Shown piece by piece: positions 15,765-63,351 of a DNA stretch of 64,000 bases; position 1 is the first letter of the stretch; each line of letters begins with the position of its first letter. Position numbers and translations under genes: made by a program. The notes below the pieces were generated by a model, which searched no databases, had not been told where the DNA came from, and saw nothing but the letters and a program-made list of their open reading frames with translations. The stretch is from Panorpa germanica (Eukaryota; Arthropoda; Insecta; Mecoptera; Panorpidae): the NCBI GenBank assembly GCA_963678705.1, contig OY783209.1, positions 9,858,001-9,922,000 on the forward strand, given 5' to 3'.

Positions 15765-16585
15765 TGCCCAGAAAATTCTGGAAAAGGTAAAGTGTTTCTT
15801 TTTTATGGAGATTTTTGCTACTATGTGTGCAAATTTCCTTTTACAGCTGATTGTCACGAAAAATTGATTCACTTGAATTGTGAAAAGATTTATTGAAATT
15901 TGGACATTCGGATGATTCGAAATTTGGATGATTTCAGTGATTCGATTTTCATAAGTTAATGCTTGAGACTGTACAAATATATCACACTCCCACAATTTAA
16001 AAGAATCTTTAAAATCTAAGTTTTTTTTATTTTGAAGTAAAAACTTGAAAAACCATCTAAATAATTCAAAAGCCACATCGTCCGTAGTCTTTCAATCTCG
16101 GCAACTCCACCGTCAACTAACTCACACAGGCACAGACACACATATTGTCTGGAGGGAACTGGAGCTGGAGTGGATTCGCACACTTCAGCTCCAGAAGAAT
16201 GAATGCGTATAAATAAAACATCGAGGATTAATTGTATCCTAAATACGTTGTTTACACACGCTTAAATAAATAAACCGTTGAAAAACACTGAAAACATTTT
16301 AAAGGATACTTAGAATTTAGAGCTTTAAGCTTTTTTTAGTAACAAAAGCTTTTTTTGATTTTATTTTATTTTAAATGTTTAATTTTTAAATGTAATTAAG
16401 ATTTGATGCTAGATTATAAAGTAATGTATCACTGAAGAAGGTTTCGTGTGCTACTTTTATTATAATTGTATTGTTTAGATTTAATTAGTTGTATTTTATA
16501 AGTCATACATAGTAATGTATTAATATTTCCTGCTATTTGCCTAGGCACATCATTCCAGAAATTGGTCTCTAAATCACTTAACTAC
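15765..16585. other. No gene recognised
   Basis: A minus-strand frame of 119 codons (15717-16076) partly overlaps the repeat end and looks like chance. Nothing else is supported. Confidence 0.4.
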
Positions 16586-19373: not shown

Positions 19374-20659
19374 ATTTAAAAAAAATGAAACCTTGAACCT
19401 TAAGAGAGAAATTAACTTAGCATTGCCATTTCATCAAAATGATTACTGAGAGGAAAAACTGAAAGCGCTTTTTTCTACAGAATTTTTGCTACTATATACG
19501 CATATGTCCTTTACAGTTCCATCGTCTAGCAACTTTCCAGTTAAATCAAATCATTATTTTCGGTAACAAAAACTAATAAGTTATTAAAAAAAAAGCTTTA
19601 AAAAGTCGTAAAAAGAAAAAGTTCTACATTCACAGAATCAAAGTCAAAGATCAACAAAATAATATAAATAAAAATTGTTTACGATTTTTGACTCTGAGAA
19701 TATATAACAAATAAGCCTTTTGTTAAAGGCAGAATAAAAGGAAATTCTAAGTAAGGCTATTCATCAAATAGAGATAGTCCGATGGTAGTAAACAAGTTGC
19801 GAGAACTCCCGAAGATAACCGAACCGAACATATTAGAAATGAAATCCCGACTCAAAGAAGCTCGAATAGAAGAAAATACTGGAGAAAGGAAAGCCAAAAG
19901 AAAAAAGGAATAAGTAAAAGTCTGAAGTAAGGTTTATACTTAGAAGCAGAGCCGTATTTACATTAGGGTGAAATTGTTGTGTGCTTAGTGCCCGTTGAAA
20001 AGATGAGATTGGAAGGCCAGGTTAAGTGTTTTTACCATTTGTAGCTCATATCACTGATCAATATATATGATGTCAAAGCGACTCCAAAATGTTTACTGGA
20101 ATAGTTCCGTTTTATAGAAATTAAGTTATGATTCATAAGCCCATTGTTCAAATAATCTCTAGTTTCATTCTTGTGTATATAAGAAGAGCCCCAGGCCGAA
20201 TAGCTTCGAATTTGAACCTGTTCATGAAACTAGAAGAGGTCAGAGTTCAATTGCAATCGGTGCTTCCTTGTAAACGTTGAACCGTTTTACATGGATATTT
20301 AATACTTTAAGTTTAAACTAAAAAAAGGTAAAGATTTAAAATCTTGTAAACCCTGAACATTATAAAGTGTGGCAGTTTACTTTACCTTGCGCCTTCTCTG
20401 GATACATTTTATTAAGTGCTGTTTAAATATTTATCAGTCTAACAAAGTAATAAGCGATAATCAAGAGTAAATTGATATTAATTAGTTAAGAGGAACTTGG
20501 TATTTATATTTCCTTTTTTTTAATATTATTTTATTTTTAATGTTTTTGCCATTATATACATGTCATTGTGCTTAATTCAATTTTGATCCTTATTAAATCT
20601 AAAGATTCTCAATTTTTTCAAACGAAAAGAAATATATATATAAAATTCCTTATAAAAAT
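19374..20659. other. No gene recognised
   Basis: AT-rich, with no supported coding or structural feature. Confidence 0.4.
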
Positions 20660-21503
20660 AAAAACCAAACTGCTACTGCTACTGCTTCGCTCCTCCTGCT
20701 ACTGTCCCTCCTGTTTCTACTCTGCCATTCCTTCTCTTTCCTAGTTCCTTTCCTCTATCTCCGCCATCCACCTCTTCCCTTCACTTTCGGCATTACATTC
20801 TTCTGTCTTAAAAAGATTTAAAAAGCTTCCGCCTTCCTTCTTTTAATTATTTCTGCCATTCATCTGTTCCCTTCCTTGCCCCCTTTTAAGAGCTGCCCAA
20901 TATTCATCTCACTTCCTACTATTTCCTTACAATCAAACTTAATGTGCTCCAGTGTTTCGTCCTCCGTTCCGCACACTCTACACATTCTTTCCTCTCTACA
21001 TTCCCAGTATCTGTTTCCTTTTTCCTCATTGCCCAATCTAAACCTTGCTGTCCTTCTTATGTTTTTTATGTCTTTTTCTATTAAGTACTTACTAGGTATA
21101 TTACTTTCCAAAATCCTTTTATATCTTGTATTGTAATTGCTTTTCTCGATTTTTCCCATTCTTTCCTGTTGTTGTATCTCCTTAGCTCCTCTTCCACACT
21201 TGCACCTCTTTCTCTTTTCCTCTCTGCCTCCTTGATCGCCATTCCATTCCTTTCAAAGTACTCCTTTCTCTTTTTCGGGCCTCGTCTTCTCCCCCCCCCC
21301 ACCTTCTTTATACTTTCCTCCCATATTTTCTTTAAAATTTTGCTTTCAGCACTGCTCATTTTCTCCTCATATTTTATTGCTCTTTCACCTGCTTTAATTC
21401 TTATCTTGTCCCTTTTTAGCTCCTCCATGATCATGTACCCTTTTTTTAATATTAAGTTTCGATAGTTATAAGCACTAAAAACAATATATATATTTATAAA
21501 CAT
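20660..21503 (-). mobile_element. 5'-truncated LINE, C-terminal region with a frameshift
   Basis: Two overlapping minus-strand frames (21503-21081, then 21159-20860) read the end of one reverse-transcriptase polyprotein interrupted by one frameshift near 21150. The first part is highly charged (Lys/Glu/Arg). The second contains RRTARFRLGNEEKGNRYW, then a C-x2-C-x8-H-x4-C knuckle (CRVCGTEDETLEHIKFDC). This is typical of the C-terminus of LINE polyproteins abundant in hymenopteran genomes. A C-homopolymer lies at about 21292-21301. No reverse-transcriptase core remains, so the copy is 5' truncated and inactive. Confidence 0.7.
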
Positions 21504-23952: not shown

Positions 23953-23956
23953 CTAA

Positions 23957-24959
23957 TGTAACCCTACCCCTTATATCTACTATCTATAGATGGTGGTAGT
24001 TACTTATTTTATGAGAGCGATACTACAATCGTCTCATGCGAAAGTTCGTTTATGGGGATCTGGTTCCCCTTGAGTCGGATGACCAAGCTAATTCTGCTAA
24101 TTGTGGAGGCTTCTTTATCATTCAGGACTTATTACCTCATCTAATTATATTTCATAAATATATTAGGTTTTACTTACTTTTTGTACTTTCTCTGCAGGCA
24201 GCTTCCTCTGCTTTGGACAATCACTTTATTTAACGCGACACGACCGTTAATTCTAAGTACTTTTACAATTAAAACAAGGGAATCCTTAACACTTAATTCT
24301 TTATTATTCAAAACTTAATTAATACAAATCTTAGTAATTTTAATAATCTTTATGTCAAAGCGACTGACTAATACCCGAACCACCGACTAAGGGGCGCTAC
24401 TCCCTTATTAGACGGGGCTGATTAGACAGACCTTTCGATTGACGTCTCGACGTACTAACTGGCTGATTGATCTTGATGGACTGACCCCCTCTACTCTCTT
24501 AAACTAAGCTTATATAGATTAAAACCCTTTGTTTGAACATATGAACTCGTTTGAACTCAAATGTTATTTCGTCATCACTACTAAAATCAGATGACATTCC
24601 GTCATCAGTTCTTTGGACTTTTCATATTTGGTTTTAATATAAACATTATTTGAATCTCCACGTGCCTCACGCCCAAAAGCTACACGTGTCTTAAACAAAG
24701 GAAGTTAATTAATATTTCTCTTAAAAGTTATTGTAAATACTGCGTCAGCAATTTTGATTATGATACTAATATACGGACATGGTTCTCTCGATAAAGCAAT
24801 ACTAAATGTAAATAATGTTCACGACATTTAGACGCCTAAAACTAATAAAAATACAAAGTATTTGAATCTTCCAATGGTTCTTAAATAGTTAGTTAAAATA
24901 TATTATCAATAATTAATGAATCTATAATAATCTATATATATATATATGGGACTGTTACA
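23957..24959 (-). repeat. 3' LTR of the Gypsy element
   Basis: Direct repeat of 34455-35457, 1,003 bp, with TGTAAC/GTTACA ends (TG...CA). Candidate polyadenylation signals AATAAA on the minus strand lie at 24300-24305 and 24225-24230, downstream of the inferred start equivalent at 24482. The 65-codon plus-strand frame inside it is antisense and not supported as a gene. Confidence 0.95.
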
Positions 24960-27104: not shown

Positions 27105-30100
27105 TTATATTCTACTATTCGATATCCACGGTTGTTTTGGTGCAACGCATCGGCTGCGCAAAGAGTAACTATGCCCAATTGTATCTTCAACTGGATTTTC
27201 TATCTCAATATCAATATTCTCTATATTGTCATTATTATCAATATTCGTGTCTATCTCGATTATTTCTTCTATCTCATCTGATATATCATTATTCGTATCA
27301 CTAGTATAACCAAAATTCAATAAATTACCGAAACCTGTATTTAGATTCGTATCATTTTCTTCATCTTCAGATTCACTTTCTGAATGAACTTCATTATTTC
27401 CTGAAAATACTTCAGCTGTGTTACCTTTAAATTTCTTGAGGCGATTAACATGCACTCGTTCTTCCCGTTTTCCATAAATTTCCTTTATTAAAAAGTTTAC
27501 TTCGCTGGTTCTATCAATAATTCTATAAGGCCCTCGCCATACTTTTCCAAGTTTTCTACTTAATCCCGGTGTGTGCGTCATATGTTTCAATAGCACATGA
27601 TCACCTATTTTAAATTTTACCGGTTCCGACTTTTTATTATATTGTTTAGCCTGTCTATCTTTTGCTGTTTCTAACCTTTCTGTACATAACTTAAAAGCGT
27701 TCTTTAATCTTAAAATTAATTCGGCGGCATAATTATCATCGAGGTCGTATCTAACTCTTTCAGGTTTTAATACTTCACCATATGGTAATACCATATCACG
27801 ACCATGCATTAGAAAAAATGGTGTTTCTTGTGTCGAACTATGTATAGCTGCATTGTATGCCATGACAGCGTAGTTTAAGCAGGAATCCCAATTCCTTTGA
27901 TCAGAATCCACGAAATGTGACAAATAGTCTTTTAATATACGATGACAACGTTCTAAACTTCCGTTTGTCGAAGGAGAATACGCTGATGTTGAAAGTTGCG
28001 TAATGTCTAGTCTCTTACAAACGTTTCTAAATAATTCGGACAAAAAGTTAGTACCTCTATCTGTCAATAAAGCTTTAGGAGTACCATAACGTGCTATAAC
28101 TTGTTCACAAAATACCTTTGCTACCGTTTCTGCAGACTGATCAGGTATTGCAAACGCTTGCAAGTATTTTGAGAATGCACATTGAACTGTTAAAATGTAC
28201 TTCATTCCTGAATTACTGAGTACTAATGGTCCTACAATATCTAGTGAAATTCTTTCAAATGGATAAGTAAGCGGTTTAAATTTCTGTAACGGTGCTCGTT
28301 TTAAATGAGGTGACGTTTTTCTCATTTGACAGCTCAAACATTCTTCACAATATCTTTTTATGTCTTGTCTCATTGCTGGCCATACAAAATGTTTCTTTAT
28401 TATCTGTAGTGTCCCTTCAAATGCCCTATGCCCTGCTGAAGGCGTATTGTGAAACATATACAATATATTCGGTACCATTCGTGTTGGTGCTACTACACAG
28501 TCATTTCTATCTGTTTTTTCATTACTTTTCTTATACAATATACCCCTATCATCTAAATAATAATCATTTTTCTCCCCATACTTAGTTTGCGTTATTAATT
28601 GTTTAATATGGGAATCACTAGCTTGTTCATTTTTAATTTGACACCAATCCCAATATGGAACTTCTTCAGCTGCTACGGCTGCAATACTTTCTGTTTCTAT
28701 TCTACTTAATGCATCGACATTACCGTGTTTTACCCCTGGCCTATAAATAATTTCAAAATCGTAATCTGCTAAAGTTAAAGCCCACCGTGCTAATCTACTT
28801 TTCATTGGATCTTTCATAGTCATTAACCAACGTAATGATCTGTGATCTGTTTGAATCTTAAATTTCTTACCATATAAATATGTACGAAAGTGTGATAAAC
28901 TCCATAAAATCGCTAAACATTCCCTTTCTGTGGTTGAGTAATTTTTCTCACATTTATTTAATTTACGAGAAGCGTATGCGACAGGACGTTCTACTCCATC
29001 CTGAACTTGGCTTAGGATTGCGCCTAATGCGATTCCTGATGCATCTGTCCCTAATATAAATTCTTGACTAAAATCTGGGTAAGCTAAGACTGGCTCAGAA
29101 CATAACGCGTTCTTTAATGCTTCAAAACTTTTCTCTTGTTCAGGTCCCCAAATAAATGACTCATTTTTACAAGTTAGTTTTGTTAGGCTTGATGATAATT
29201 CTGAAAAATTCTTTATAAATCGTCTATAAAATGAAGCTAACCCTATAAAAGATCGGATTTGTTTAACTGTTTTCGGACGCGGATAGTTTCTAATTACTTC
29301 CGTTTTTTCTGGATCTGCCTTTACACCATCACTAGAAATAATATGACCAAGATATTGCGTTTCTTTATTCATAAATTCACATTTGCTAGGCTTCAATGTC
29401 AAACTTGCTTCTCTCAAGCGATCGAAAACCTCTTTAATTCTCTGGATATGTGAATCTACATCATCGTTACTAAATATTATAATATCATCTAGGTAAACTA
29501 AACAATGTACTCCGGTTAAACCCGCTAACACTGCATACATAAGTCTCTGAAATGTAGCAGGAGCTGATACTAACCCAAACGGCATAACATTAAATTGAAG
29601 GTGTAAATCAGGTGTTGAAAATGCTGTTAATTCTTTAGATTTTTCGTCCATTTCAATTTGCCAAAATCCCGATGCTAAATCTAATTTGGTAAATAAACTT
29701 GCTTTGCCTAATTTATCAAGAGTGTCTACTAAGTGTGGTAATGGAAAGTAATCTCTTTTTGTTATTGCGTTAAGACCCCTGTAATCTATGCAAACTCTAA
29801 CCTTGTTTTCCCCATTTGCTGCTTTCTTATTTACAAGAACAACATTACTGGACCACGGTGACATTGATGGTTCTACTATGCCATCTTCAAGCATTTGATC
29901 TATCTGTTCTCTCAGTACCTGTAACTGTGCATGCGGAACTCTATATGGTTGTTTAGTTATAGGAGGAACATCTTGAATTATTATCTTATGTTTAACTATC
30001 GAGGTAGTTTTCAATTCTTGACCCTCTGTTAAGAATATGTCGCGATATTCGTAAATTAAATTTTCCATTTTACTTTGGTCTCTAGCACTTAAATGATTTA

Positions 30101-32015
30101 ACTTTATTTTACTAAAAAGTTCCGTTATTCTCTGTGTTTTATTTATATCATCATTCTTATGACTTTTTTGCTTCCACTGATTGGTAACTTCATGTATAAT
30201 TTTATCTTCTTTAGCTGTTAAATTATTATAACCTATTTCATCAAATAATTGTATATTTTCAAACCCTGTGTTTATTTCTGCTGATCGTACAGCACCAATT
30301 AAAATATTTTTATTTCTTTGTCGGACGTGCTCTCTTAATAATTCAACTGTTTCAGTATATTCGTTATCATATGGCTCTATTATACCTATCTTAGTATTTA
30401 TTGGTATATTTATACTCTTTTGCGTAACATTGGTTATTCTACATATTAACCTACCCTTACATATTGAATTTACACTTCTTGCTACTAATACTCCATCTAT
30501 ACTCAATTCTGGGTTAAAAATCCCATGACCTTCCTTAATGTCTTTTTGAAATGCATGAACATTTATTGTACATCGGGGCGGTAACGTTTCTTGACCTAGT
30601 AACCTAACACTATACCGATTACTACTACACATGTGTGCGTCTGTTCGCTTTCGAGTGGTTTCAGATTTCTCATTCATAGTTGTGTTTATTTTTTCAGCTC
30701 GCTCAGCTGTGTGTATTCTTTTTAACCACTTTGTTTGTAAGTTCTTCCATTTCTTTACCTGTTCTTGGGATTTAACATTCTTTCCGTCAATGTTATCTTT
30801 TAAATCATTATCATTTTTACTTATTACACAGTTCATATACCTTTTTTCATTTTTTTTCGATTCGCCATCATAGAATGCTATCTTTATTTTACTTTCAGAA
30901 AATATATATTCAATCATTTTACTCACTATTGTAAAATCTAATTTATCTAGCCCACATGCTATGTATGGTAATGCAATAAATTTCACTTTATTTTCTAACA
31001 TATGATCCCGTAATTTAATTATTGACGAATATAAATCTGCGTAGAGAGGTTTCTCGTTACTCCTCTTTTTTGTCACTAAATAATATATAAAACGATTTTC
31101 ATCTTTTAATATAGCTAATCCACCCTTTTTCTGTTTCTGTCTCAAAAGCTGCTCAACTCTGCCAAATCTTTCTTTAAATTCAACTGCTATTCCTTGTGAC
31201 ATACGTAAATCTGAGGCTACACAATGACCCAATGCATACTTGCTAGATGCATTAAACAAATCTCCCTTATTATAATTTATTTTGCACAACGTCTCTATCG
31301 TTGGAAATCTACTAATTTTCCATTTTAGAAAATCATCAAAACTTTTATATTCGTGCCCTATCTTATCAATTCGCTGATTATTTACTTCTCTTTTTACGTC
31401 AATATTTTCTGTTTCAGTACAACCTATATTTCTACCTTTTCTATTCTTTTGTACGATTTTCCCTGACTTTGATATAACACGCTTTTGCCTTCTAATGATA
31501 CCATTTACATTTTCTCTAATCATATTATTAATATTCAAATTATCTCTCTGAAAATCATGTACAGTATTACGATTAATGTCGTAAATAACGTTTCTGTATA
31601 TTAAAATACCCTTTCCAAAATCTACAATTATCCCAAATTTACGAAGAAAGTCTAACCCAATTATACCTGTCCAATTTTCCATATTTTCTACAATTTCAAA
31701 ATCAAAAGTCACATTATCCCCAAATAAATCTAACTTTAATCTGCTTTTACCAAGTGTATGTATTTTATTATTTTGTGCATCTCGCAAGATATTTTGCGAT
31801 TCTGTAATTTTTTCTGTTTTTAAACATTCTCTAGTTAGTAGGCTGGCGCCTGCACCACTATCTATAAGAACGTTACAATTTTGACCATTAATTACTAAAT
31901 TAAGAAACCATTGATTATCATGAAATGCCGGTACATACAACTCTGTAAGATTACCCTTTTGATTACTTATTGAATGGCTTCTACGTCTCGGGTAGTGAGT
32001 GAAGCCATCAATCCG
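27105..32015 (-). CDS. pol: Gypsy Pol polyprotein with embedded TARG1-like macro domain
   Basis: Expressed by -1 frameshifting from gag (frame open from 32021). Residues are numbered from the TTG codon at 31940, giving 1,611 residues to the stop. Aspartic protease at 1-115 (IDSGAGASLL, Asp27; IIGLDFL 93-99). Basic linker. Macro domain at about 219-366. Charged linker. A beta-rich region at 440-525 usual between Gypsy protease and RT. Reverse transcriptase at about 640-910 (LDLASGFWQI, YLDD at 816-819). RNase H at about 960-1080 (Asp966, Glu1005, Asp1032, Asp1076). Integrase has a zinc-binding H/H/C/C (1164, 1171, 1201, 1204), a catalytic D1234, D1294, E1330 with 35 residues between the last two, and GPY at 1470-1472. 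The tail at 1515-1590 is acidic. Every catalytic residue I can check is present and there is no internal stop. The macro domain is the odd feature: it is not a standard part of Gypsy Pol. Confidence 0.95.
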   Translation of the reverse strand, partial: RIDGFTHYPRRRSHSISNQKGNLTELYVPAFHDNQWFLNLVINGQNCNVLIDSGAGASLLTRECLKTEKITESQNILRDAQNNKIHTLGKSRLKLDLFGDNVTFDFEIVENMENWTGIIGLDFLRKFGIIVDFGKGILIYRNVIYDINRNTVHDFQRDNLNINNMIRENVNGIIRRQKRVISKSGKIVQKNRKGRNIGCTETENIDVKREVNNQRIDKIGHEYKSFDDFLKWKISRFPTIETLCKINYNKGDLFNASSKYALGHCVASDLRMSQGIAVEFKERFGRVEQLLRQKQKKGGLAILKDENRFIYYLVTKKRSNEKPLYADLYSSIIKLRDHMLENKVKFIALPYIACGLDKLDFTIVSKMIEYIFSESKIKIAFYDGESKKNEKRYMNCVISKNDNDLKDNIDGKNVKSQEQVKKWKNLQTKWLKRIHTAERAEKINTTMNEKSETTRKRTDAHMCSSNRYSVRLLGQETLPPRCTINVHAFQKDIKEGHGIFNPELSIDGVLVARSVNSICKGRLICRITNVTQKSINIPINTKIGIIEPYDNEYTETVELLREHVRQRNKNILIGAVRSAEINTGFENIQLFDEIGYNNLTAKEDKIIHEVTNQWKQKSHKNDDINKTQRITELFSKIKLNHLSARDQSKMENLIYEYRDIFLTEGQELKTTSIVKHKIIIQDVPPITKQPYRVPHAQLQVLREQIDQMLEDGIVEPSMSPWSSNVVLVNKKAANGENKVRVCIDYRGLNAITKRDYFPLPHLVDTLDKLGKASLFTKLDLASGFWQIEMDEKSKELTAFSTPDLHLQFNVMPFGLVSAPATFQRLMYAVLAGLTGVHCLVYLDDIIIFSNDDVDSHIQRIKEVFDRLREASLTLKPSKCEFMNKETQYLGHIISSDGVKADPEKTEVIRNYPRPKTVKQIRSFIGLASFYRRFIKNFSELSSSLTKLTCKNESFIWGPEQEKSFEALKNALCSEPVLAYPDFSQEFILGTDASGIALGAILSQVQDGVERPVAYASRKLNKCEKNYSTTERECLAILWSLSHFRTYLYGKKFKIQTDHRSLRWLMTMKDPMKSRLARWALTLADYDFEIIYRPGVKHGNVDALSRIETESIAAVAAEEVPYWDWCQIKNEQASDSHIKQLITQTKYGEKNDYYLDDRGILYKKSNEKTDRNDCVVAPTRMVPNILYMFHNTPSAGHRAFEGTLQIIKKHFVWPAMRQDIKRYCEECLSCQMRKTSPHLKRAPLQKFKPLTYPFERISLDIVGPLVLSNSGMKYILTVQCAFSKYLQAFAIPDQSAETVAKVFCEQVIARYGTPKALLTDRGTNFLSELFRNVCKRLDITQLSTSAYSPSTNGSLERCHRILKDYLSHFVDSDQRNWDSCLNYAVMAYNAAIHSSTQETPFFLMHGRDMVLPYGEVLKPERVRYDLDDNYAAELILRLKNAFKLCTERLETAKDRQAKQYNKKSEPVKFKIGDHVLLKHMTHTPGLSRKLGKVWRGPYRIIDRTSEVNFLIKEIYGKREERVHVNRLKKFKGNTAEVFSGNNEVHSESESEDEENDTNLNTGFGNLLNFGYTSDTNNDISDEIEEIIEIDTNIDNNDNIENIDIEIENPVEDTIGHSYSLRSRCVAPKQPWISNSRI
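30843..31286 (-). other. Macro domain (TARG1/OARD1 type) inside Pol
   Basis: Residues about 219-366 of Pol, between protease and RT. Motifs in order: CKINYNKGDLF (a GD at 226-227 that in the family contacts adenosine), HC-x4-D-x-RM-x2-GIAVEFKERFG (substrate loop), a basic KKGGLAIL segment, FIYYLVTKKR (Lys291) and IACGLDKL (Asp332). In TARG1/OARD1 the equivalent Lys and Asp form the catalytic pair that removes ADP-ribose from acidic residues. Both are conserved here, so hydrolase activity is predicted. About 150 residues matches the complete cellular OARD1 length, so the whole protein seems to have been captured. Biological role (for example opposing host PARP-mediated restriction) is inference only. 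Confidence 0.85.
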
Positions 32016-33088
32016 TTTAAATTATCCTCATAATTATTGGACGCGCGTAAATTTCTTTCTTCTACTTCGCTTGGCTTATTTTCGATGCTGCGAATATTTC
32101 TGTTACTTTGGAAAGTCACTTGTCTCTGATTTCTCGCAGGACTACGGCTATCATTATATTCTTGGAGGACTCTAACTCTCCCTAATCGGTCATTACTTTG
32201 ACTACGGTTTCCATACCTATTTAAACTGCGATTTCTTTGAAATCGATCTCTTACGTCTCTTATCTCCCGTTGAGGACGACTACGACAATCTCTCTGAAAA
32301 TGTCCTACTCTGTTACAATTGTAACACCTTACTCCATCTCTTTGCCTATTATTTAACCTTCGGCTTTGTGAACCGCTACGCGAGTTGCTAGGTCGCATAG
32401 ACGATTGATTATTTTGAGATGTGCGATTTACATAATAGTGGTCGGTTCTATTTATTCGGTTTGTACCACCTGTAGCAATCTCTGCTACGTAGCCTTGCTT
32501 CGATGAGACTAAATCATCGGTTTCTACTCTTTCCGCAATTTCAACGGCACTATTAAAACTCTTGGGATCCACGGCCCAAATAAACTTAGAATATCTCGGC
32601 GATATCCCTTCTTTAAATCTTTTTAAAACGGCTACTTGCAACTCAACTGTAAGCTTCTTTTCTTGCTCTTTATCAATTGCTTCTGGTACACATTTTGACC
32701 CTAATGCCCATAACCTTTGTGAAAATTCATAAACAGTCTCGCCATGTCTTTGTTTACAACCCCCGAACTCAATTTCTGCTTGTCTCAGAGCAGATGGTCC
32801 TTTTCTGCTATATCTAGACAATAATGCATTACGAATACTCATATAACTACGGTTCTCACTTTGAACCTCCGAATTAGACAAAAGATATTCAGCTACATCA
32901 GGCGACACTTTCGCAAATACGGTAACTGATTGTACCTTATCGGTCCAATCCAACAATTCTGCCATTTGATCCACCGCATTTAAAAATGTTGCTATGCTAC
33001 CTGTACCGTCAAAGAATGGTATATAATTCAATCCTTTTAATTTAGGAATTTCTGGGGCAATAACTACGTTTGGTTCATTAGTTGTCAT
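31967..33088 (-). CDS. gag: Gypsy Gag protein
   Basis: 373 residues from the ATG at 33088, the first ATG after the leader. The N-terminal two thirds (about 20-195) has the pattern of a retrotransposon capsid (FFDGTGSIATFLNAV, RQAEIEFGGCKQ, YEFSQRLWALG). An Arg/Asn/Ser-rich nucleocapsid follows with one C-x2-C-x4-H-x4-C zinc knuckle (Cys255, Cys258, His263, Cys268) for RNA binding. The stop at 31967-31969 is bypassed by the -1 slippery site over codons 356-358. Assembles the particle that packages the element RNA. No mutation is visible. Confidence 0.93.
   Translation of the reverse strand: MTTNEPNVVIAPEIPKLKGLNYIPFFDGTGSIATFLNAVDQMAELLDWTDKVQSVTVFAKVSPDVAEYLLSNSEVQSENRSYMSIRNALLSRYSRKGPSALRQAEIEFGGCKQRHGETVYEFSQRLWALGSKCVPEAIDKEQEKKLTVELQVAVLKRFKEGISPRYSKFIWAVDPKSFNSAVEIAERVETDDLVSSKQGYVAEIATGGTNRINRTDHYYVNRTSQNNQSSMRPSNSRSGSQSRRLNNRQRDGVRCYNCNRVGHFQRDCRSRPQREIRDVRDRFQRNRSLNRYGNRSQSNDRLGRVRVLQEYNDSRSPARNQRQVTFQSNRNIRSIENKPSEVEERNLRASNNYEDNLNGLMASLTTRDVEAIQ
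31974..32021 (-). promoter_or_regulatory. Programmed -1 ribosomal frameshift signal (gag-pol)
   Basis: Minus strand: the heptamer TTTAAAC (32021-32015) lies exactly in the gag frame as T TTA AAC, the canonical X XXY YYZ form. After a 6-nt spacer (32014-32009) comes ATGGCTTC (32008-32001), a 19-nt loop, then GAAGCCAT (31981-31974), a perfect 8-bp stem extendable by ATTGA/TCAAT with one bulge. The pol frame is open from 32021 and gag stops at 31967, so slippage here joins the two frames. Confidence 0.88.
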
Positions 33089-34432
33089 TTTAACTATTTG
33101 GAATAAACTTTAAATCAAATAAAAACCTTTAGTAAGCTTCAATAAACTACTACAAATATTTTAAAATCTATTTTTTTTTTTTAAAAGTAAACAATATCTT
33201 ACACGGCCTTAGTTATTTTAACAAAACTGTACGCTTGTGATTTACTTTTTGAAACGAAATGGAACGTCTGGTTGTTTATATATACATAAAAATAAACAAA
33301 CAAATTATTTTTAAGTAGGTCAAACAAAATGCTAGTATATTTAATATAGACTGTTTTTAGAACAATAAAAACCCAAATAAAAATTATGACAAACAATATT
33401 TATGACAAAAGTATATTAACGAATTGTAAATTGATAAAATTATTTTTAATTATTAGTTAAATAAAATCAAACAAACTATTTTATGTATTACTCAATATTT
33501 TCTCATATAATCTAAAAATAAATTCAAAATAATTTCAAATAAGTTGTGTTACAAATTTTTTTAATCGTTCCAATCACTTAATAAAATTACGACAAAACAA
33601 AAACTACTTATTTTTTCAATTCCTGTTACAATGACTCTAAACTTTATACTTTATAAAAACGTGCCACTTTACTTGTGAATTACAAAAACTATTTTAAAAA
33701 ATATCCCTTATTTAGTTACGGTTAAAACAAAATATTCAACTTTAACAAGTTATGGTTTAGAAAAATTATCTACTGTTTAGTTCCTTAAATTTATTCCCTT
33801 TTTACAAAACTTAAAATACCCCACTCTTTGATTATTTAAATATTCCCTTTTCTTTAATTATGCTGATATCTTTTCTTTTTCTAATTATTAATATGCAGTT
33901 GCTAGTTGCAATTAATAAACTATATCTCTTTTTTAATTATTAATATGCAGTTGCTAGTTGCAATTAATAACCTATATTTCTTTTTCCCAATTAATACAAT
34001 TTTATCCTTTTTTTCCCAGTTACTATAATTTATTCCTTTTTTCACAATTATCTTTCTTCCCAGTTACTACAATTTATTCCTTTTTTCACAATATTTCTTT
34101 TTTCCCGTTACTAAGATTATCCCTTTATTTTCTCAAATTATTTTCCACTTAATGCCTTTTTTCTCAATTACTCAAATTTCTGCCTTTTTTAATATCCCAC
34201 AATGTTAATACCTTTTTTAACGTATCTCTCTTTTAATATATCTCTCTTTTAAAATACCTTACAATTTCTATACCCTTTTTCTTTTAAATGACCTCACAAT
34301 TTCAATACCTCTCTTTTAATATATCCCACAATTTTCGTATCTCACGTATTTTCGTATTTTAACGTATCCCTCTTTTAATGCACCCCTTTTTATACGACCC
34401 AACAATTTTTAAATACCCTTTTTCTTTTAATT
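33089..34432 (-). other. Leader (5' untranslated region) of the Gypsy element
   Basis: About 1.35 kb between the primer-binding site and gag. It is strongly A-rich on the sense strand. It contains a direct tandem duplication of about 52 bp (copies starting at 33883 and 33935, each with TTAATATGCAGTTGCTAGTT) and, from about 33988 to 34430, a degenerate array of pyrimidine-rich units (CCCAGTTACTAC-AATTTATTCC and variants). No ORF on the sense strand is supported. Confidence 0.7.
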
Positions 34433-34451
34433 GATCCCACTTCTGACACCA
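34433..34451 (-). other. Primer-binding site, tRNA-Leu type
   Basis: Minus strand TGGTGTCAGAAGTGGGATC, 3 nt inside the 5' LTR. Its complement ends CCCACTTCTGACACCA, the acceptor and T-arm 3' end of eukaryotic tRNA-Leu plus CCA. Confidence 0.8.
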
Positions 34452-34454
34452 AAA

Positions 34455-35457
34455 TGTAACCCTACCCCTTATATCTACTATCTATAGATGGTGGTAGTTA
34501 CTTATTTTATGAGAGCGATACTACAATCGTCTCATGCGAAAGTTCGTTTATGGGGATCTGGTTCCCCTTGAGTCGGATGACCAAGCTAATTCTGCTAATT
34601 GTGGAGGCTTCTTTATCATTCAGGACTTATTACCTCATCTAATTATATTTCATAAATATATTAGGTTTTACTTACTTTTTGTACTTTCTCTGCAGGCAGC
34701 TTCCTCTGCTTTGGACAATCACTTTATTTAACGCGACACGACCGTTAATTCTAAGTACTTTTACAATTAAAACAAGGGAATCCTTAACACTTAATTCTTT
34801 ATTATTCAAAACTTAATTAATACAAATCTTAGTAATTTTAATAATCTTTATGTCAAAGCGACTGACTAATACCCGAACCACCGACTAAGGGGCGCTACTC
34901 CCTTATTAGACGGGGCTGATTAGACAGACCTTTCGATTGACGTCTCGACGTACTAACTGGCTGATTGATCTTGATGGACTGACCCCCTCTACTCTCTTAA
35001 ACTAAGCTTATATAGATTAAAACCCTTTGTTTGAACATATGAACTCGTTTGAACTCAAATGTTATTTCGTCATCACTACTAAAATCAGATGACATTCCGT
35101 CATCAGTTCTTTGGACTTTTCATATTTGGTTTTAATATAAACATTATTTGAATCTCCACGTGCCTCACGCCCAAAAGCTACACGTGTCTTAAACAAAGGA
35201 AGTTAATTAATATTTCTCTTAAAAGTTATTGTAAATACTGCGTCAGCAATTTTGATTATGATACTAATATACGGACATGGTTCTCTCGATAAAGCAATAC
35301 TAAATGTAAATAATGTTCACGACATTTAGACGCCTAAAACTAATAAAAATACAAAGTATTTGAATCTTCCAATGGTTCTTAAATAGTTAGTTAAAATATA
35401 TTATCAATAATTAATGAATCTATAATAATCTATATATATATATATGGGACTGTTACA
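34455..35457 (-). repeat. 5' LTR of the Gypsy element
   Basis: 1,003 bp, identical in length and in every stretch compared to 23957-24959. TG...CA ends with 6-bp inverted repeat TGTAAC/GTTACA. It carries the promoter listed separately. Confidence 0.95.
34978..35014 (-). promoter_or_regulatory. LTR promoter: TATA box and initiator
   Basis: Minus strand TATATAAG at 35014-35007 is followed about 32 nt later by TCAGT (34982-34978), the arthropod initiator consensus. The predicted start is the A at 34980. Confidence 0.6.
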
Positions 35458-35461
35458 CTAA

Positions 35462-49656: not shown

Positions 49657-52600
49657 ATGAAGCCGCTATTCGCGCTTCTCGTGTTATCTGTGGCCGTACT
49701 CATCAGCGACGTGAGCGCCTACTCAAGTAAGTAATAACAGTAGGTTAAGATTACAAAGGTCAGGCTAATCTAACGAAGGTCAACAACTATAAATGGTTTT
49801 AATCTAATAATATTATTCAACAATTAAACAAATACGCATTATTTCAAAGATATTTTATTATTCCGCAAAACAGAAAACACTGATGTAACCTTACTTTTAT
49901 GTCACATATTACTTCAGCAAAATCTAGTAATATTTCATCTAAAAAGGTCTTATTTTATTGCCAACATTAAAGTTCTGCTGGTTTAGTTTTAGTAATATAC
50001 TACCACAAGCTGAAATTTACATTTAAGGTTAAAACATATAATTAATAAACTAACTTATAATACTTAACCTTACTTCTAATGGGCTTGTGTCCTATGTCCT
50101 AATTTCTATAAAAGTGTACTATATATTGATAAAGTGGGTTACTAGAACCTCAAATGTTCAATTATTTTTTAATAACTCCTTATATGTTAAGAGATATTAA
50201 CAGTTAAAAAAGTCATTTTGTCTCTTTGATTATTAAAGGGATTCAACGTTGTACACATTCCAAGTGCATGTGACATCACAATCCATGTGTAAGGTTACCA
50301 ACCTTACAGCTCATAAATCTCTGCTATATGTATTTATATATCAAAATATCAAATATTATTTACAGCTATTTCAAGGAACAATAAAATTCCAATATTATGT
50401 CTGCCGTAACAGGGTTAAATAAAATAAAAACTTATTATTCTTTGACTTGACTTGATTATTTCGACTACCAACAGCTACAAAACATTACCACAGCACTGAC
50501 CTACTCAACAAATAACTGACGTTAAAATGCATTTCAAATCATACAAATATGGCCGACCATCTCTAGCGCTAAAACTACAATTCAAACTTTTAATTGCTAT
50601 ATCTCCGTCAATATTTAGATATTTAATAAAATAGACACGCCAATACACATTTATTACCATCAATTTCAATCAACAATTGAAAAATCGACCACTAAAAATT
50701 GAGGACACAAGCCCATTTGGATCCTACAGCGGACACTCTCTCGATATGCACTCAATTTTAGAAACTTTCATTTATTTGCATGTACATTTTGTGTATCTTG
50801 CAATCTGTAAAGACAGACATTCAGATAGCTATTGGTTTAAAAATGTTTCATTCGAAATCACTCCTCCTCTATTTTACCTAACTCTATATATAACTCATCA
50901 TTACTATATTCTATTTTTAGAATATGGAAGAACTTGCAAAGACATAGGATGTACTCCAAGCGAAGAATGTGTCATCGTGGAAGATCGCTGTAGCTATGGC
51001 CAAACAGATTCTTGTGGAAGTTACCCCACTTGCCGACGAAAGACCTCAAGCTGTAAGTTATACCTGTTAAGGGGAAAAACAACCCATTTAATCAAAGTAA
51101 TATGGTTGATAGAAGAAAAACTTCAAAAAAGAAACTCAATTCATGGCCTTATATCGTGTCCGATAGTTCTAATTTTTGAATAAGTTGAGTGCGATTCTGG
51201 TCGCCATTTTTTCAAGATGGCGTCGGATTAAGACATATCCAAGAATTAGATGTAAGGTAGTACCTTTTTATTTGCTCCAGCTGCTTTAATTTGCAGCATA
51301 GCCAGTACGTCAATTTTTTTCTAAATTTCATATTTATTTACACATAAAGGCTCCTATTTTCCAACGCCACCTGGGCTGTACTATCTATAGTTTCAAAAAT
51401 CGTTTAAAGCAGATACATTTCCATAATTCATCTTCCAGCTTCTTCTCAACCAGCGCAACCATCTTCTGGTACTGACGATACTAGACAAACGGTACGTACT
51501 AAACCTGCAGCAACTACATACACTGGCACTAACATGGGGGGAGGTTCTGCTCCAGCATACAACAGTGGAGGATACCAAGGTGGTTATCAAGGCACAACAG
51601 GTACTGGAGGAAGCTACCCTGCCGGAACACATCAAGGTGGTGGAGGATATCAAGGTGGTGCAGGATATCAAGGTGGTGGAGGTTACCAACAACCTGGCTA
51701 CCAGCAACCTGGAGGAGGATATCAATCAGGGGGTGGAGGATACTCCGGGGGAAGCAGTTATGGAGGATCTCAACCTAGCAGTGGATCTACAGGTTCTGGT
51801 TCTGGTTCCGGATTGAATTTCAACAGTTTGTTAAATCAAATTAATGGTGGAGGTGGTCTAGGAAATCTACTTACTGGATTGACTGCAGGAGGAAGTTCTA
51901 AATCAGGACATCCTAGTTCTACGGGTAAGATATTTATATTTGGCAACAGCATGGGTAATCTCAATCATTGGTAAACTCCACATATCAATAAGTAAAATAC
52001 CACCTTCAACGTATCGAAGGTATACATTTATATTACATTTTTTTTATTAATATAAAAATGTTACATACAAAATTTCATGTTAAAATTTAATCAAAATTTT
52101 AAGTTAGTCATATCAGTTTGGATAGCTCAGAGTTCTAGTCTTGCCCTACACATATCAAAACTCTACTAAATACATTCTATCATTTTCAGCATATCATCAG
52201 CCAATGGGATTCATACGCATGGCAGTTATTTTAACAATGCTGTACAAATTATTACTGTAAAAAGTACTTATAATTCAAAGATGCATTACACCCCAGTGCA
52301 GCTAGATTCATAAACGTAACATTTTACCCAAATACTGAAATTATTAACACAATTTTTTTTATTTTAAGATTATATAAAACCTTTTTACAAAACAGGGAAT
52401 ATCAGTTATATAAAATTATCGACGAAAACTGTTAAAAATTATTGTAATATTATGTACAAATGATTATAAGTAGATTGTAGAATATTTAGCAGAAACTTTT
52501 AAATAGAGTACTTTGTACTACAGAATTAATTTGAATTAAATGTTCTACCACAGCTGATTTTGAATCAAAAGTATTAATAATATATATATACAAAAATATA

Positions 52601-54191
52601 TATGTATGTAGCTTAAGATATCATAAATTTTGTGATGAATAGTATTTTTATTTTTAGATACTAACAAGTTAAGTATACTTATATTTAAAGACAGGAATGA
52701 CACCTTTGTACAGATAAAAATATATGAAATTGAATATATGGCTGTATTATATTTTTGTTTAAATATATAAAATGTAAATATAATCATAATTCAAGAGTTT
52801 CATTTTTATTGTTTCTAATTTATGTTTCTTCAATCTCAGCTGTATTTAACATTTATTTCTATGTATTCTTTTTATTAATATCTACTCTTTTTAATAACAT
52901 TTTCATTAATATTTATATAATTACTTTGGCATTGAATTATATAATTCAAGTGAAAGTAAACAGGTTCAAGTTAAAACATAAATTATTCTAACAAATTAAA
53001 TATTATCAAAGTATCAAACCAAACTAAAGCAGTAATCTTTTTTATGAATTTAAATAGAGGTGAAAACAATATTTCGCAGCTTATAAATGTATATATTTTT
53101 ACAGCCTCTGGAGGTACTTTAACATCACTTCTTGGAAATTTAGCAGGCGGAGGAAGTCATGGCGGCTCTCAAGCAGGACATGCATTGACATCAATTTTAG
53201 GAAACTTTGCTGGTGGTGGAGGTAGTGGTGGTTCAACATCTGGAGGAGGTTCATCATTATCTTCTATTTTGGGATCATTTGGAAATAAAGGAAGTAAATC
53301 TACTTCTGATTCTGCAGCATCTGGTTCCCAAGGTTTAGGTTCTCTTTTAGGAAGTCTAGCAACTGGAGGAAGCAGTCCGTCATCTGGAAGTAGTTCAGGA
53401 AGTACTGGATTGAGCTCTATTTTTAACAGCATTTCATCTGGAAGCGGAGGTCAAGGACTTAACTTGGGATCTTTATTAGGTACTTATTTTGTAAGATTAA
53501 ATAAACCGGTTTAATACGATCGATAAAATAGTTTTCTAATTGTTGAATATACTCTCAATAATTAAAGCCATAAATATGGTCTATTTACTCTGACGGCTCA
53601 CAGAAACCGTAGTCAAGAATCACACCTTTGCAATTTCGGTTGCCGCTAAACAGGAGTATACTTTTACACCAGATGGTATAAAAGCTCATTCATTTTACAG
53701 GATCTATTACAAGCGGTGGTGGTACTCGTCCAGTTCAAAGAAATGATCCTCCACCTCAGCGACCCAAGTCACATGAAGGAGGAACTTACCGAACACAAGG
53801 AGGTGGTTATCCAACACAAGGTGGTGGATATCATGCACCTCAACCAGGAGGTTATACACCACAAGGAGGGACCTATGGTCAACAAGGTGGTTACGGTGGT
53901 GGTTATGCTCCCCAACAAGGTGGCGGATATTCTGGATATCAAGGACAAGCCTATCCAGGAGCTGCACAACCAGGTTATAATCCTGCTGGTTATAACCCTG
54001 GTGGATATAATCCTGGATATAACCAAAATGGACAGCAGGTTCCTGCATCGTCTAATTTATACCCTAGCTTAAACAGCGCTCCAGCTACTAGTCAATCAAG
54101 ATCTACTTTGAACAGCAGACCAGCGTCAACGCAAACACAATCTTCAACAAGACCTAAATATGGCTGGAATGTTTCCTCAACAGCAGTGTAG
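49657..54191 (+). CDS. Secreted Cys- and Gly-rich repeat protein, long isoform
   Basis: Exons 49657-49726, 50921-51052, 51439-51924, 53105-53479 and 53701-54191 join to 517 residues. All introns are GT-AG and phase 1. Residues 1-22 (MKPLFALLVLSVAVLISDVSA) form a clear signal peptide. A six-cysteine module follows (RTCKDIGC, EECVIVEDRC, DSCGSYPTC), probably disulfide-bonded. The rest is low complexity: GGYQGG/GGGYQQPGGY repeats in exon 3, SLLGNLAGGG/SSILGSFG repeats in exon 4, and GGYxPQGGGY then GYNPGGYNPG repeats in exon 5, ending KYGWNVSSTAV. This resembles extracellular structural proteins such as silk, cuticle or egg-coat glycine-rich proteins, but I cannot name a family. AATAAA signals follow at 54565. 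Exon 4 could be skipped without breaking the frame. Confidence 0.8.
50078..50717 (+). mobile_element. Non-autonomous TIR element, AATGGGCTTGTGTCCT family (copy 2)
   Basis: 640 bp with the same perfect 16-bp inverted ends as 15250-15764. It lies in the intron between the first two coding exons of the Cys/Gly-rich gene, ending about 200 bp before the acceptor of the Cys-module exon. It has a TGCCGTAACAGGG-type segment absent from copy 1. Confidence 0.8.
52190..52260 (+). CDS. Alternative terminal exon of the Cys/Gly-rich gene (short isoform)
   Basis: Acceptor CATTTTCAG ends at 52189 and the reading phase is 1, compatible with the donor at 51924. It encodes AYHQPMGFIRMAVILTMLYK plus three Leu and a TAA stop. 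Joined to exons 1-3 it gives 252 residues ending in a hydrophobic segment right at the C-terminus, with no cytoplasmic tail. That is the layout of a GPI-attachment signal or a tail anchor. The long isoform skips this exon and continues at 53105. Choice between the two ends would switch the product from membrane-attached to secreted. Confidence 0.65.
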
Positions 54192-60008: not shown

Positions 60009-60317
60009 GGTAAGACGACATTTAAATATAGCATGGTTCATAAATAAATATTATGCATGGATCAAAGTTATTTTTGAGGTTATGTCAAAATTATGTTTCA
60101 AGTGTTTTCTGAAACTGATACAAGAGGTTTAAAGATTATTTTATTTTTAAATGAAATACGTATTCTTCTATTATTAAGTTACAACTTTGTATTAAGTTTG
60201 TTTATGACCCATTGAAAATATTTATAAAATACGTGAAACATAATTGTGTTATTTAGTTTGTCGAAAAATATAAAATCTTACCTCTTGCTCTTTTCAGATA
60301 ACACGTTCAGTTTAACA

Positions 60318-60635
60318 ATGGAAACAATGGATATACAAGCAGTTGAATCTAAATTAAGTGATGTTACTGTCACAGCGGTTCCAATGACAATAAAATCGAT
60401 ACCACCTGTTCAAAATCAGCCAACAAACCAAAATCAATCATCAAATAATACAAATAGTAACGGGTTAACTAAATACGCTCAACTTCTGAGTGTAATCGAA
60501 GAAATGGGCCGTGATATTCGTCCTACATATTCTGGGAGTAAGAGTTCTGCTGAAAGATTAAAACGTGGTATTATTCATGCTAGAATTCTTGTGAGAGAAT
60601 GTTTAATGGAAACGGAACGTTCTGCTCGGCAATGA
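60318..60635 (+). CDS. CDK2AP1: CDK2-associated protein 1 (CDK2AP1/DOC-1)
   Basis: 105 residues in one coding exon. The acceptor CTTTTCAG at 60299 precedes the ATG, and a 5' UTR exon probably ends near 60009. The N-terminal half (1-50) is Ser/Thr/Asn/Gln-rich and disordered. The C-terminal half is the conserved CDK2AP fold: [38 protein letters not shown] and [15 protein letters not shown], including the TER motif linked to CDK2 binding in the mammalian protein. CDK2AP1 is a dimeric helical subunit of the NuRD chromatin complex and a negative regulator of CDK2. A polyadenylation signal AATAAA is at 60884. The start at 60318 is the first ATG after the acceptor. A second in-frame ATG follows three codons later. 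Confidence 0.93.
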
Positions 60636-62134
60636 ATTGTTCACCAAACATATTTACAGGATCTTAATCCAAATACTTCAATAGAATATAATTTATATTA
60701 ATTACTTAACTTATTTGTGTATACTAAAATTATATACGATTACTACCGTTACAAAGATTTTAAACTTTTACGATCCTAGACTCGTTAGTTAAGTTGACTC
60801 TAGAATGTGTTAAATACTACCAAGAGTGAATTGTTAATACAGGAGTCAAATAGAAGTACCCAACTTATAATAATGCATCAGATAATAAATCTAGAAGAAT
60901 ATAATGGGATATGTTTTTTCTTAATATAAAGTGAACTGTGAAAAAATAGTATATATATTTAGGCATTATAAAAAATATATCCTTATTAATGTAATCTGAA
61001 TGCAATGTTATTTAATGTATATGTATTATTAGATTAAATTAAGTAGTTACCTAGAGCTAGACAAATTTCTTGTGAAGATAAAATGTTAAGATTTTCAAAA
61101 TAATTTGGCCGTTCTAAATGAAAGTACAAACAAATTATATCAGTTATAAAAGTGGACCAATATTACCATTATATCATAAAAATAACACCAATATCATAAA
61201 TAATTAGCAATTGATGAGCATTAGTTATATAATAATAGAATCCAAATATTAGATATTTTTATTACAATATGCATGTATGTAGTGTATCATTTATTTATAT
61301 GTATTATTCTATTTGATGGAAGGTACATAAAAATTATTTTAAGTAATGAGTTAGTCATGACAGGAAAAGCAATATATTGGAGACTTTGTATACGACGTAG
61401 TGTTAGAGTTAAGAAATAGAAGTAATTAAGCACATATAAATGTGAAATACAAAATTAAATATAAATTGATAGGTTTAAAACTTTATACTCGATAAAATAA
61501 TACTTTATTATAAAATTTAATATGTGTACCTTCCAAAATGTTCATGTTGCTTTAATAATTGATAATTTAAATACTTCCATTTTGCACTAAAATTCCATAC
61601 TCATTTATTTTAATCTAAAGAAATATATCATTTAAAAAGTTAAATAATTATGTAGAAGTTGAATTTTATAGTATTATAACTACAGAAATCCAAATAAATA
61701 AATACCTTTTATAAACTCAGGAAATGTAGTAATATTTTTAAAGAAAATTATCAAAGACATAGAATAATTGTAAAGATATTTTCAATGTAACAGAAAGCTA
61801 TATTATTAGATATTAAATTTTAAATATAAAAGAAAGTGTCTTGTTTTTCTTGTTTGTATTTACCTGACTACCCACCTGATTTGTTAAAAAATAACTTAAC
61901 AAACGTTCTTGGCTTATATATTTGCGGTATCAACATCTCACATAAGTTATTATGTGTAAGTCTTATAAATAAGATTTTTTTAGATTATATATTACTAGGT
62001 TTCATTTCAGTAAATTATTACATGAATATAACGTAACATTCATATAATGTGTTTTCGAGGAACTTATTTTGGTAATTACAAAACATCGTTAGGTTTTTAA
62101 ATTGTATAATATTTGTTTCAGGTAATATTTAAGA
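60636..62134. other. CDK2AP1 3' UTR and spacer before DPH7
   Basis: AT-rich. A candidate 3' end lies near AATAAA at 60884. An acceptor TTTGTTTCAG at about 62112-62121, just before the DPH7 start, implies an upstream 5' UTR exon that I cannot place. Confidence 0.45.
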
Positions 62135-63351
62135 ATGACTTCTAATAATTGGAAAACGTTGCAAACATGGGATACAGAATATAGCGCTGATTCTGTTGAA
62201 TGGTGTCCACATGAACCATATCAAAACATGTTTGTCTGCGGTACCTATCAACTTGTAAAAGAAGAACCAAATAATGAAACAGCTGTAAAAGAAAATGATA
62301 AACCAGTTGAAAGACGTGGAAGAATATTATTATTCTCCGTAATTGAAGATGAATTAAAAATAGAACAAACTATAGAAGTTCCTGCTGTTTTAGATCAAAA
62401 ATGGTGTCATAATCAAATAAATGGAAAGTCAGTTCTAGGTGTTGTAAACGCTTCAGGGGTTTTACAAATTTATGAGTTAAATGAAATCAGTTTAACACTA
62501 GTAACGCAGATTAATATAAATTCAGAATGTACGGATTTATTAGCGTTATCGCTTGATTGGTCTACGGGAAGAACTAATTCCTCCGAGCCAAATATTATTA
62601 TCAGCGATTCAAAAGGAAACATTTCTATATGTAAATTTACAGAAAATAATTTGTTAATGGAGATGGAGATGCATGCACATGATTTTGAAGCCTGGATAGC
62701 AGCTTTTGATTATTGGAACACAAATATTGTTTACACGGGTAATATTATAATGTGGAATTGATAGTCTGCAATCATTTTTAAGATAACTTTTTCTGTTATA
62801 GTTTTATTTTATAAATATTATAGGAGGGGATGATTTAAAATTCAAAAGTTTTGATCTTAGAATGGGAACAACTCCTGTATTTGTCAACAAAGTACACGAA
62901 GCTGGAGTAACTAGTCTTCACAGTAATTCCAAAACGGAACATTTATTAGCCTCAGGAAGGTTTGTTATTTTACCACAAATAGTAAATATATCAATTTGAT
63001 TATAAATTATAATTAATTTTTAGTTATGATGAACATTTATATATCTGGGATACCCGAAAAATTAAAAACCCGGTGAGCAAAACAAATTTAACTGGAGGAG
63101 TTTGGCGTTTAAAGTGGGATCCTTTTCATTATGATCAGATTTTAGCAGCCTGTATGTACGGTGGATTTAAAACAATTTCTTGTAAGAATATGGAGAATCC
63201 CCAAATTATTGCGGAATATCAAGAACACGAAAGTATTGCTTACGGTGTTGATTGGTGTCATCTAAATACAGATGTTAACGATTTTTTAATAGGGACCTGC
63301 TCTTTTTATGATCATAAGTTATGTTTATCGAAATTAATTGTAAATCCATAA
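62135..63351 (+). CDS. DPH7: Diphthine methyltransferase homologue DPH7 (WDR85)
   Basis: Exons 62135-62738, 62824-62959 and 63024-63351, with GT-AG introns in phases 1 and 2, give 355 residues. It is a WD40 beta-propeller: TEYSADSVEWCPHEP at the start, LALSLDWS, then AAFDYWNTNIVYTGGDDLKFKSFDLR, HLLASGSYDEHLYIWDTR, GGVWRLKWDPF, ILAACMYGGF, YGVDWCH and GTCSFYDHKLCL near the C-terminus. The GGVWRLKW and CSFYDH segments are characteristic of DPH7. The enzyme removes a methyl ester from methylated diphthine on translation elongation factor 2, allowing the final amidation to diphthamide; the family name is historical. It acts in the cytoplasm. Both the start and the stop are well supported by homology, and no truncation is seen. 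Confidence 0.93.

Follow-up and report, generated by a model that had tools for sequence, protein, structure and literature searches.

Does a long terminal repeat (LTR) retrotransposon carry, inside its own polyprotein, an enzyme that erases ADP-ribose? The question is raised by a 64,000-nucleotide stretch of the Panorpa germanica genome (contig OY783209.1, positions 9,858,001–9,922,000; hereafter the window), on the minus strand of which lies a Ty3/Gypsy-type element whose Pol holds a macro domain between the aspartic protease (PR) and the reverse transcriptase (RT). A first-pass annotation, made from the letters alone, had read this domain as being of the TARG1/OARD1 type, and the Pfam domain order, phmmer and fold comparison uphold that reading in both type and position.

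The macro domain spans Pol residues 220–360 (30861..31283, minus strand), as assigned by phmmer, alignment, fold comparison and tree. Searched against the PDB sequences with phmmer, it matches human TARG1/C6orf130 with an E-value of 3e-38 (134.7 bits) over 138 gap-free residues; the two are 47% identical in the alignment, and chance is excluded, on sequence grounds, as the source of the match. The expected structural likeness to human TARG1 was also recovered, with a predicted macro fold within 0.8 Å. The closest PDB structures to this prediction are TARG1 and then DarG, which head the 50 entries listed; no MacroD entry is among those 50, which by itself does not prove that none would match. 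At the level of profiles, the NCBIfam DarG model gives E 2.7e-11 (43.3 bits, below that model’s whole-protein cut-off of 250), and the score of the general Pfam Macro model falls short of its threshold (see below). The interval first assigned to the domain, 30843–31286, holds in its coordinates and must be read on the minus strand, frame 1 of the plus strand being full of stops. The claim that the domain is in frame, free of stops and without introns is likewise sound: a single open Pol frame (27105–31940) spans it, while these 423 bp contain 6 to 19 stops when read in any of the five remaining frames. No second macro copy was found in the window, where the best match, of 17 residues at 19668–19718 (E 0.21), was taken as chance.

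The host of this domain is an element with a full set of retrotransposon parts, all on the minus strand. The pol open reading frame (ORF; 27105..31940, 1611 amino acids, from the ORF list and Pfam) encodes PR, macro domain, RT, RNase H and integrase in this order. RT (residues 705–868, 29337..29828, YLDD at 816; RVT_1, E 1.5e-37), RNase H (residues 956–1060, 28761..29075; RT_RNaseH, E 1.6e-41) and integrase (27972..28487), the last with an H2C2 zinc domain at residues 1152–1210 (E 6.1e-18) and an rve core at 1227–1323 (E 8e-12), all exceed their Pfam cut-offs. The protease (residues 10–107, 31620..31913) was assigned from its DSG motif at residue 27 and from five Pfam models, all of which match below their cut-offs; the nearest to its own is RVP (20.0 of 20.7 bits) and the best E-value is 2.2e-5 (gag-asp_proteas). 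Upstream of pol lies gag (31967..33088, 373 amino acids, from the ORF list), with a CCHC zinc knuckle (zf-CCHC, E 2.1e-6). The order PR-RT-RNase H-integrase rules out Copia and is common to BEL/Pao elements and retroviruses. Taken with the LTR pair with TG..CA ends, the target-site duplication and the CCHC gag, the element is of the Ty3/Gypsy type, its clade and the line against BEL/Pao or retroviruses being drawn from Pfam models and domain order. An env ORF 3’ of pol, which marks the env-bearing insect Gypsy elements or Errantiviruses, was not seen: between pol and the 3’ LTR there is no minus-strand stop-to-stop frame of at least 60 amino acids, the search being for unspliced, undecayed frames.

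Where did the domain come from? Relatives were sought with alignments, the viral contigs giving 3, 15 and 80 loci (the last being the best 80 of 132) and the genome contigs 0 and then 35. Out of 129 loci, 95 were entered and 34 left out, namely 14 other-type macro proteins from the 3- and 15-locus viral sets, 5 of the 35-locus genome set and 15 of the best-80 viral set, mostly near-duplicates or lower scores. Eleven of the 95 were dropped for a stop in the matched stretch and five as identical, leaving 79. A quick tree of 85 rows was built from these 79, the Pol domain, human TARG1 and four outgroups; a tree of 65 rows omits the outgroups and also 16 loci that were distant, long-branched or near-identical. 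Residues were counted in an alignment of the Pol domain with 78 of the 79, all of them phage or bacterial and none from an insect.

In the 65-row tree, the Pol domain branches together with human TARG1 (support 100/96), apart from 63 phage and bacterial TARG1-like proteins. Furthermore, a tyrosine at human TARG1 position 80 is common to the two, where 75 of the 78 phage or bacterial rows have asparagine. With one animal sequence to compare it with, kinship to animal rather than phage-type TARG1 is supported, and the alignments and trees place the domain in the animal-type TARG1 (OARD1) lineage. Since human TARG1 is the single animal sequence in the tree, the animal type can be assigned, and the particular animal cannot. 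Measured by codon drift, the capture is probably not a recent one, because the GC content at third codon positions of the macro domain (GC3 0.227) and its codon use fall within the range of the remaining pol (GC3 0.18–0.30); the reference here was the RT and integrase of the same gene, from which a host gene’s codon use may differ.

These searches have their negative side. The viral contigs gave no relative when queried with the macro domain alone, nor when queried with the RT/RNase H stretch, and in tblastn against the 129 loci the RT/RNase H and integrase stretches had no match at E 0.01. They also brought to light stand-alone TARG1-like macro proteins of large phages (12 phage records, e.g. 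LP65, LpeD, G, LC76P1 and Fnu1), with 132 stretches confirmed in the viral contigs. Among the 35 genome-contig loci, 20 are from Paenibacillus. That these stand-alone proteins act against DarTG is a guess.

The catalytic residues are in place. Pol D332 (codon 30945..30947, minus strand) aligns with D125 of human TARG1, which we take to be the catalytic aspartate; an aspartate occupies this position in 74 of the 78 relatives, a count raised by a search pattern that required GLD. Pol K291 (codon 31068..31070, minus strand) aligns with K84, a lysine in 76 of the 78. K84 is required for TARG1 to rescue cells from thymidine-linked DNA ADP-ribosylation (PMC8501950).

As to how the domain is made, the open pol frame, which is in the -1 frame relative to gag, extends upstream to 32021 and so shares 55 nt with the end of gag. 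At the very start of this open frame, and in gag phase, lies a heptamer like those of -1 ribosomal frameshift sites, T TTA AAC (32015..32021, minus strand), followed 6 nt downstream by a stem-loop of eight perfect pairs, ATGGCTTC/GAAGCCAT (31974..32008, minus strand). Since place, phase, heptamer type and stem combine, -1 frameshifting is the likely route to Pol. By that route, the macro domain would be a minor packaged component, as part of Gag-Pol. A pseudoknot between the loop and a downstream GGGTA was considered as well and set aside as likely chance.

Putting these data together, we propose, with slightly better than even confidence, that the element captured an animal-type TARG1, expresses it by frameshifting, packages it and uses it to clear ADP-ribose from its own parts. 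On this account, a Ty3/Gypsy-type element would have taken an intronless TARG1 (OARD1) coding sequence into pol between PR and RT, a step for which sequence, fold, the clade with human TARG1, position and the open frame all speak. A -1 slip at TTTAAAC, shortly before gag ends, is suggested by the in-phase signal and would then yield a Gag-Pro-Macro-RT-RH-IN polyprotein, and a few macro domains per particle would be co-packaged with the RNA, reverse transcriptase and integrase. Inside the particle, its substrate would be mono-ADP-ribose attached to the element’s own parts, be it on acidic residues in Gag, RT or integrase or on bases or terminal phosphates of the RNA or cDNA. As a result, host ADP-ribosylation would no longer block reverse transcription or integration. 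This outcome is modeled on what TARG1 does elsewhere and on the place of the domain: TARG1 takes ADP-ribose off Asp/Glu and off thymidine in DNA (PMC8501950), and acts on ADP-ribosylated RNA and DNA (PMC11920425). If the domain is active, an LTR retrotransposon possesses its own ADP-ribose eraser, and the finding would suggest that ADP-ribosylation restrains retrotransposition in animals with few PARPs. Such a restraint would be testable with one small soluble domain of known catalytic residues.

Having proposed this mode of action, we would note that a number of observations weigh against it. The Pfam Macro model (PF01661) reaches only 14.7 bits (E 0.03) on whole Pol and 17.7 and 18.7 bits (E 0.0035 and 0.0018) on the cut-out domain, short of the gathering cut-off of 22 bits in each case. 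The bootstrap of the 65-row tree had not settled; in the 85-row tree, the pairing with human TARG1 has an SH-aLRT of 91, short of the program’s star, and carries a warning of long branches meeting. The Pol domain is a long branch: its length in the two trees is 1.3 and 1.8 changes per column, where human TARG1 has 0.4 and 0.38, and in both trees human TARG1 is about as similar to one phage-contig protein (48–49%) as to the Pol domain (46–48%). The frameshift stem-loop is not exceptional in stability (minimum free energy -13.3, z -1.32, equalled or bettered by 20 of 200 shuffles), gag carries four further in-phase heptamers, and chance alone put a heptamer of the general type into such an overlap in 7% of trials with gag codons and 14% with pol codons. 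One copy of the element was seen, in this single window. Finally, the claim of a TARG1 that is complete motif by motif does not hold at two motifs, the RMGAG loop reading RMSQG and IGCGLD reading IACGLD. In all, four positions that seldom vary are altered: at G41S, 76 of the 78 relatives have glycine and one serine; at A42Q, 68 have alanine, nine lysine and none glutamine; at G121A, 76 have glycine and two alanine; and at W129F, all 78 have tryptophan. The search patterns admitted the Pol domain’s letters at positions 41, 42 and 121, so that no bias against these letters enters the counts at the three positions; what the patterns favour is G43, the GLD motif and, in the 35-locus genome-contig search, A or Q at 42. 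By homology, G41/A42 and G121 presumably sit in the ligand loops. With pocket and core residues changed relative to nearly all relatives, ADP-ribose binding or turnover may be altered or lost; with the catalytic lysine and aspartate present, the residues for the chemistry are kept, and it is the handling of the ligand that may differ.

Other explanations were weighed too. A macro domain that binds ADP-ribose but no longer hydrolyses it could be a reader that keeps the integrase complex on ADP-ribosylated chromatin or at DNA breaks, much as chromodomains may direct the integrases of other Gypsy elements. The three changes in the ligand loops, with the predicted fold kept, would suit such a role, and LTR elements are known to carry chromodomains as accessory domains (PMC6338049). 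We nevertheless consider it unlikely, given that a pure reader has no need of the two catalytic residues and that the domain adjoins PR, far from integrase in Pol, where PR may release it. A functionless passenger, a captured host TARG1 copy whose decay is still to come, we hold to be slightly less likely still. Only one copy was seen, with identical LTRs (see below) an insert without function would not have had time to decay here since the last jump, and the long branch and rare changes suit relaxed constraint; yet the insert sits in frame between two domains with no stop or indel relative to human TARG1 over 138 residues, and its GC3 and codon use, like those of the rest of pol, are contrary to a very recent insert.

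Alternatively, the protease might free the domain to act in the cell at large, where it would lower ADP-ribosylation of host proteins of PARP signalling, repair or silencing. The macro domains of RNA viruses do counter host antiviral ADP-ribosylation (PMC7729036 and PMC7232374), but encoding the domain in pol would make it a minor frameshift product if 32015–32021 is used, and cell-wide action would presumably need more; this role is quite improbable in our judgement. As for an assembly chimera of a host OARD1 exon and a retrotransposon, the availability of a single copy leaves room for it, while the unbroken 1611-residue frame over both junctions, the intronless domain, the homogeneous codon use and the complete structure of LTRs and target-site duplication make it scarcely credible. 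Our preferred account remains the packaged eraser that acts on the element’s own parts.

The ends of the element bear on its age. The 5’ LTR (34455..35457) and 3’ LTR (23957..24959), each 1003 bp on the minus strand and delimited by pairwise comparison, run from TGTAAC to GTTACA and are identical, with no mismatch over 1003 positions, an identity that could equally stem from gene conversion or assembly error. Both are directly flanked by a 4-bp target-site duplication, CTAA, read from the sequence on the left (23953..23956) and on the right (35458..35461). From these features the element looks intact and recently inserted. Three nucleotides past the 5’ LTR, a putative primer binding site was read by eye, which resembles a sequence complementary to a tRNA 3’ end (34434..34451, minus strand); the window contains no tRNA gene to compare it with. 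Nor does it contain solo LTRs of the element, whose non-coding parts match, apart from themselves, one stretch of 34 bases at 16008–16041. The 5’ untranslated region is repetitive, with tandem repeats at 33874–34113 and 33974–34440 (units of 52 bp, 29 bp and 44 bp, in 2.2, 2.4 and 2.4 copies) and a self-match of 66% over 367 columns.

The window has a GC content of 31%, and a few further features lie outside the element. An ORF at 20860–21252 (minus strand) has a weak zinc-binding RVT match below the cut-off (E 0.0051) and is perhaps a fragment of a long interspersed nuclear element. Glycine/serine-rich frames on the plus strand (51408–51974, 52975–53514 and 53682–54191) are perhaps exons of a repetitive protein; the first and last of them have no Pfam match. 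A CDK2AP gene segment was identified at 60237–60635 (plus strand; Pfam E 2.2e-35), a match that rules out reading this ORF as a Mediator subunit. WD40-like ORFs at 62126–63351 (plus strand) have weak Pfam matches below cut-off, and the first of them has no match among PDB sequences.

How does the element compare with known systems? Human TARG1/OARD1 (C6orf130; PDB 4j5q, 4j5r and 4j5s) resembles the Pol domain in sequence, predicted fold and the equivalents of K84 and D125, but it is a stand-alone cellular enzyme, whereas the element’s version is a domain of Pol with the loop changes G41S, A42Q and G121A. The macrodomains of bacterial DarG antitoxins (PDB 5m31, 5m3e and 5m3i), partners in toxin-antitoxin pairs, are more distant, with 21–23% identity.

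Among predicted viral structures (BFVD), the best match to the Pol domain is VP8 of Kadipiro virus (A0A8E0KJF2, 45% identity). Further macro-fold entries come from an isopod iridovirus and a thrips flavi-like virus (A0A068QL15, A0A7G9IR66): the isopod iridovirus protein is 41% identical over 107 columns, and proteins of thrips-associated RNA viruses range from 21 to 31%, the flavi-like virus being at 31%. No retroelement is among the 50 BFVD matches listed, which in itself is no evidence of absence. These viruses replicate otherwise than a retrotransposon does, and the likeness is one of predicted structure. Judging from such models, TARG1-type domains may have been captured repeatedly by arthropod parasites. 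The broader idea, that unrelated arthropod parasites repeatedly captured such domains and that a particle-borne de-ADP-ribosylase for nucleic acid and protein counters an unrecognised arthropod defence, we offer tentatively and regard as rather doubtful.

Reverse-transcribing elements of animal genomes have gained macro domains before. PMC4977317, with reference to Basta et al. 2009, mentions epsilon-like endogenous retroviruses of fish whose extra ORFs encode macro domain proteins. These, however, are vertebrate retroviruses with an additional ORF, whereas here the element is of Gypsy type and the domain lies inside Pol, between PR and RT. The excerpts of a survey of zebrafish endogenous retroviruses (PMC8672886) and of PMC10499221 add no more about retroelements with a macro domain. 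Among the matches listed in the open-access literature, a body that leaves most subscription papers and the Repbase reports outside, there is no report of a Gypsy element bearing a macro or TARG1 domain. The slot itself has been used by others: the rotifer elements Juno, Vesta and TelKA, and basidiomycete LTR elements, hold a dUTPase between PR and RT (PMC5408684), the same place for an extra enzyme but a different enzyme from the macro domain found here. Thus, both a macro domain in a retroelement and a captured accessory enzyme have precedent, and what is new is the TARG1 type and the PR-RT position. The slot between PR and RT gains another kind of enzyme beside dUTPase, and Pol gains a domain of the TARG1/DarG type, known for action on DNA as well as protein, as opposed to the MacroD type, to which PMC7729036 assigns the macro domains found in coronaviruses, togaviruses, iridoviruses, rubella and hepatitis E virus.

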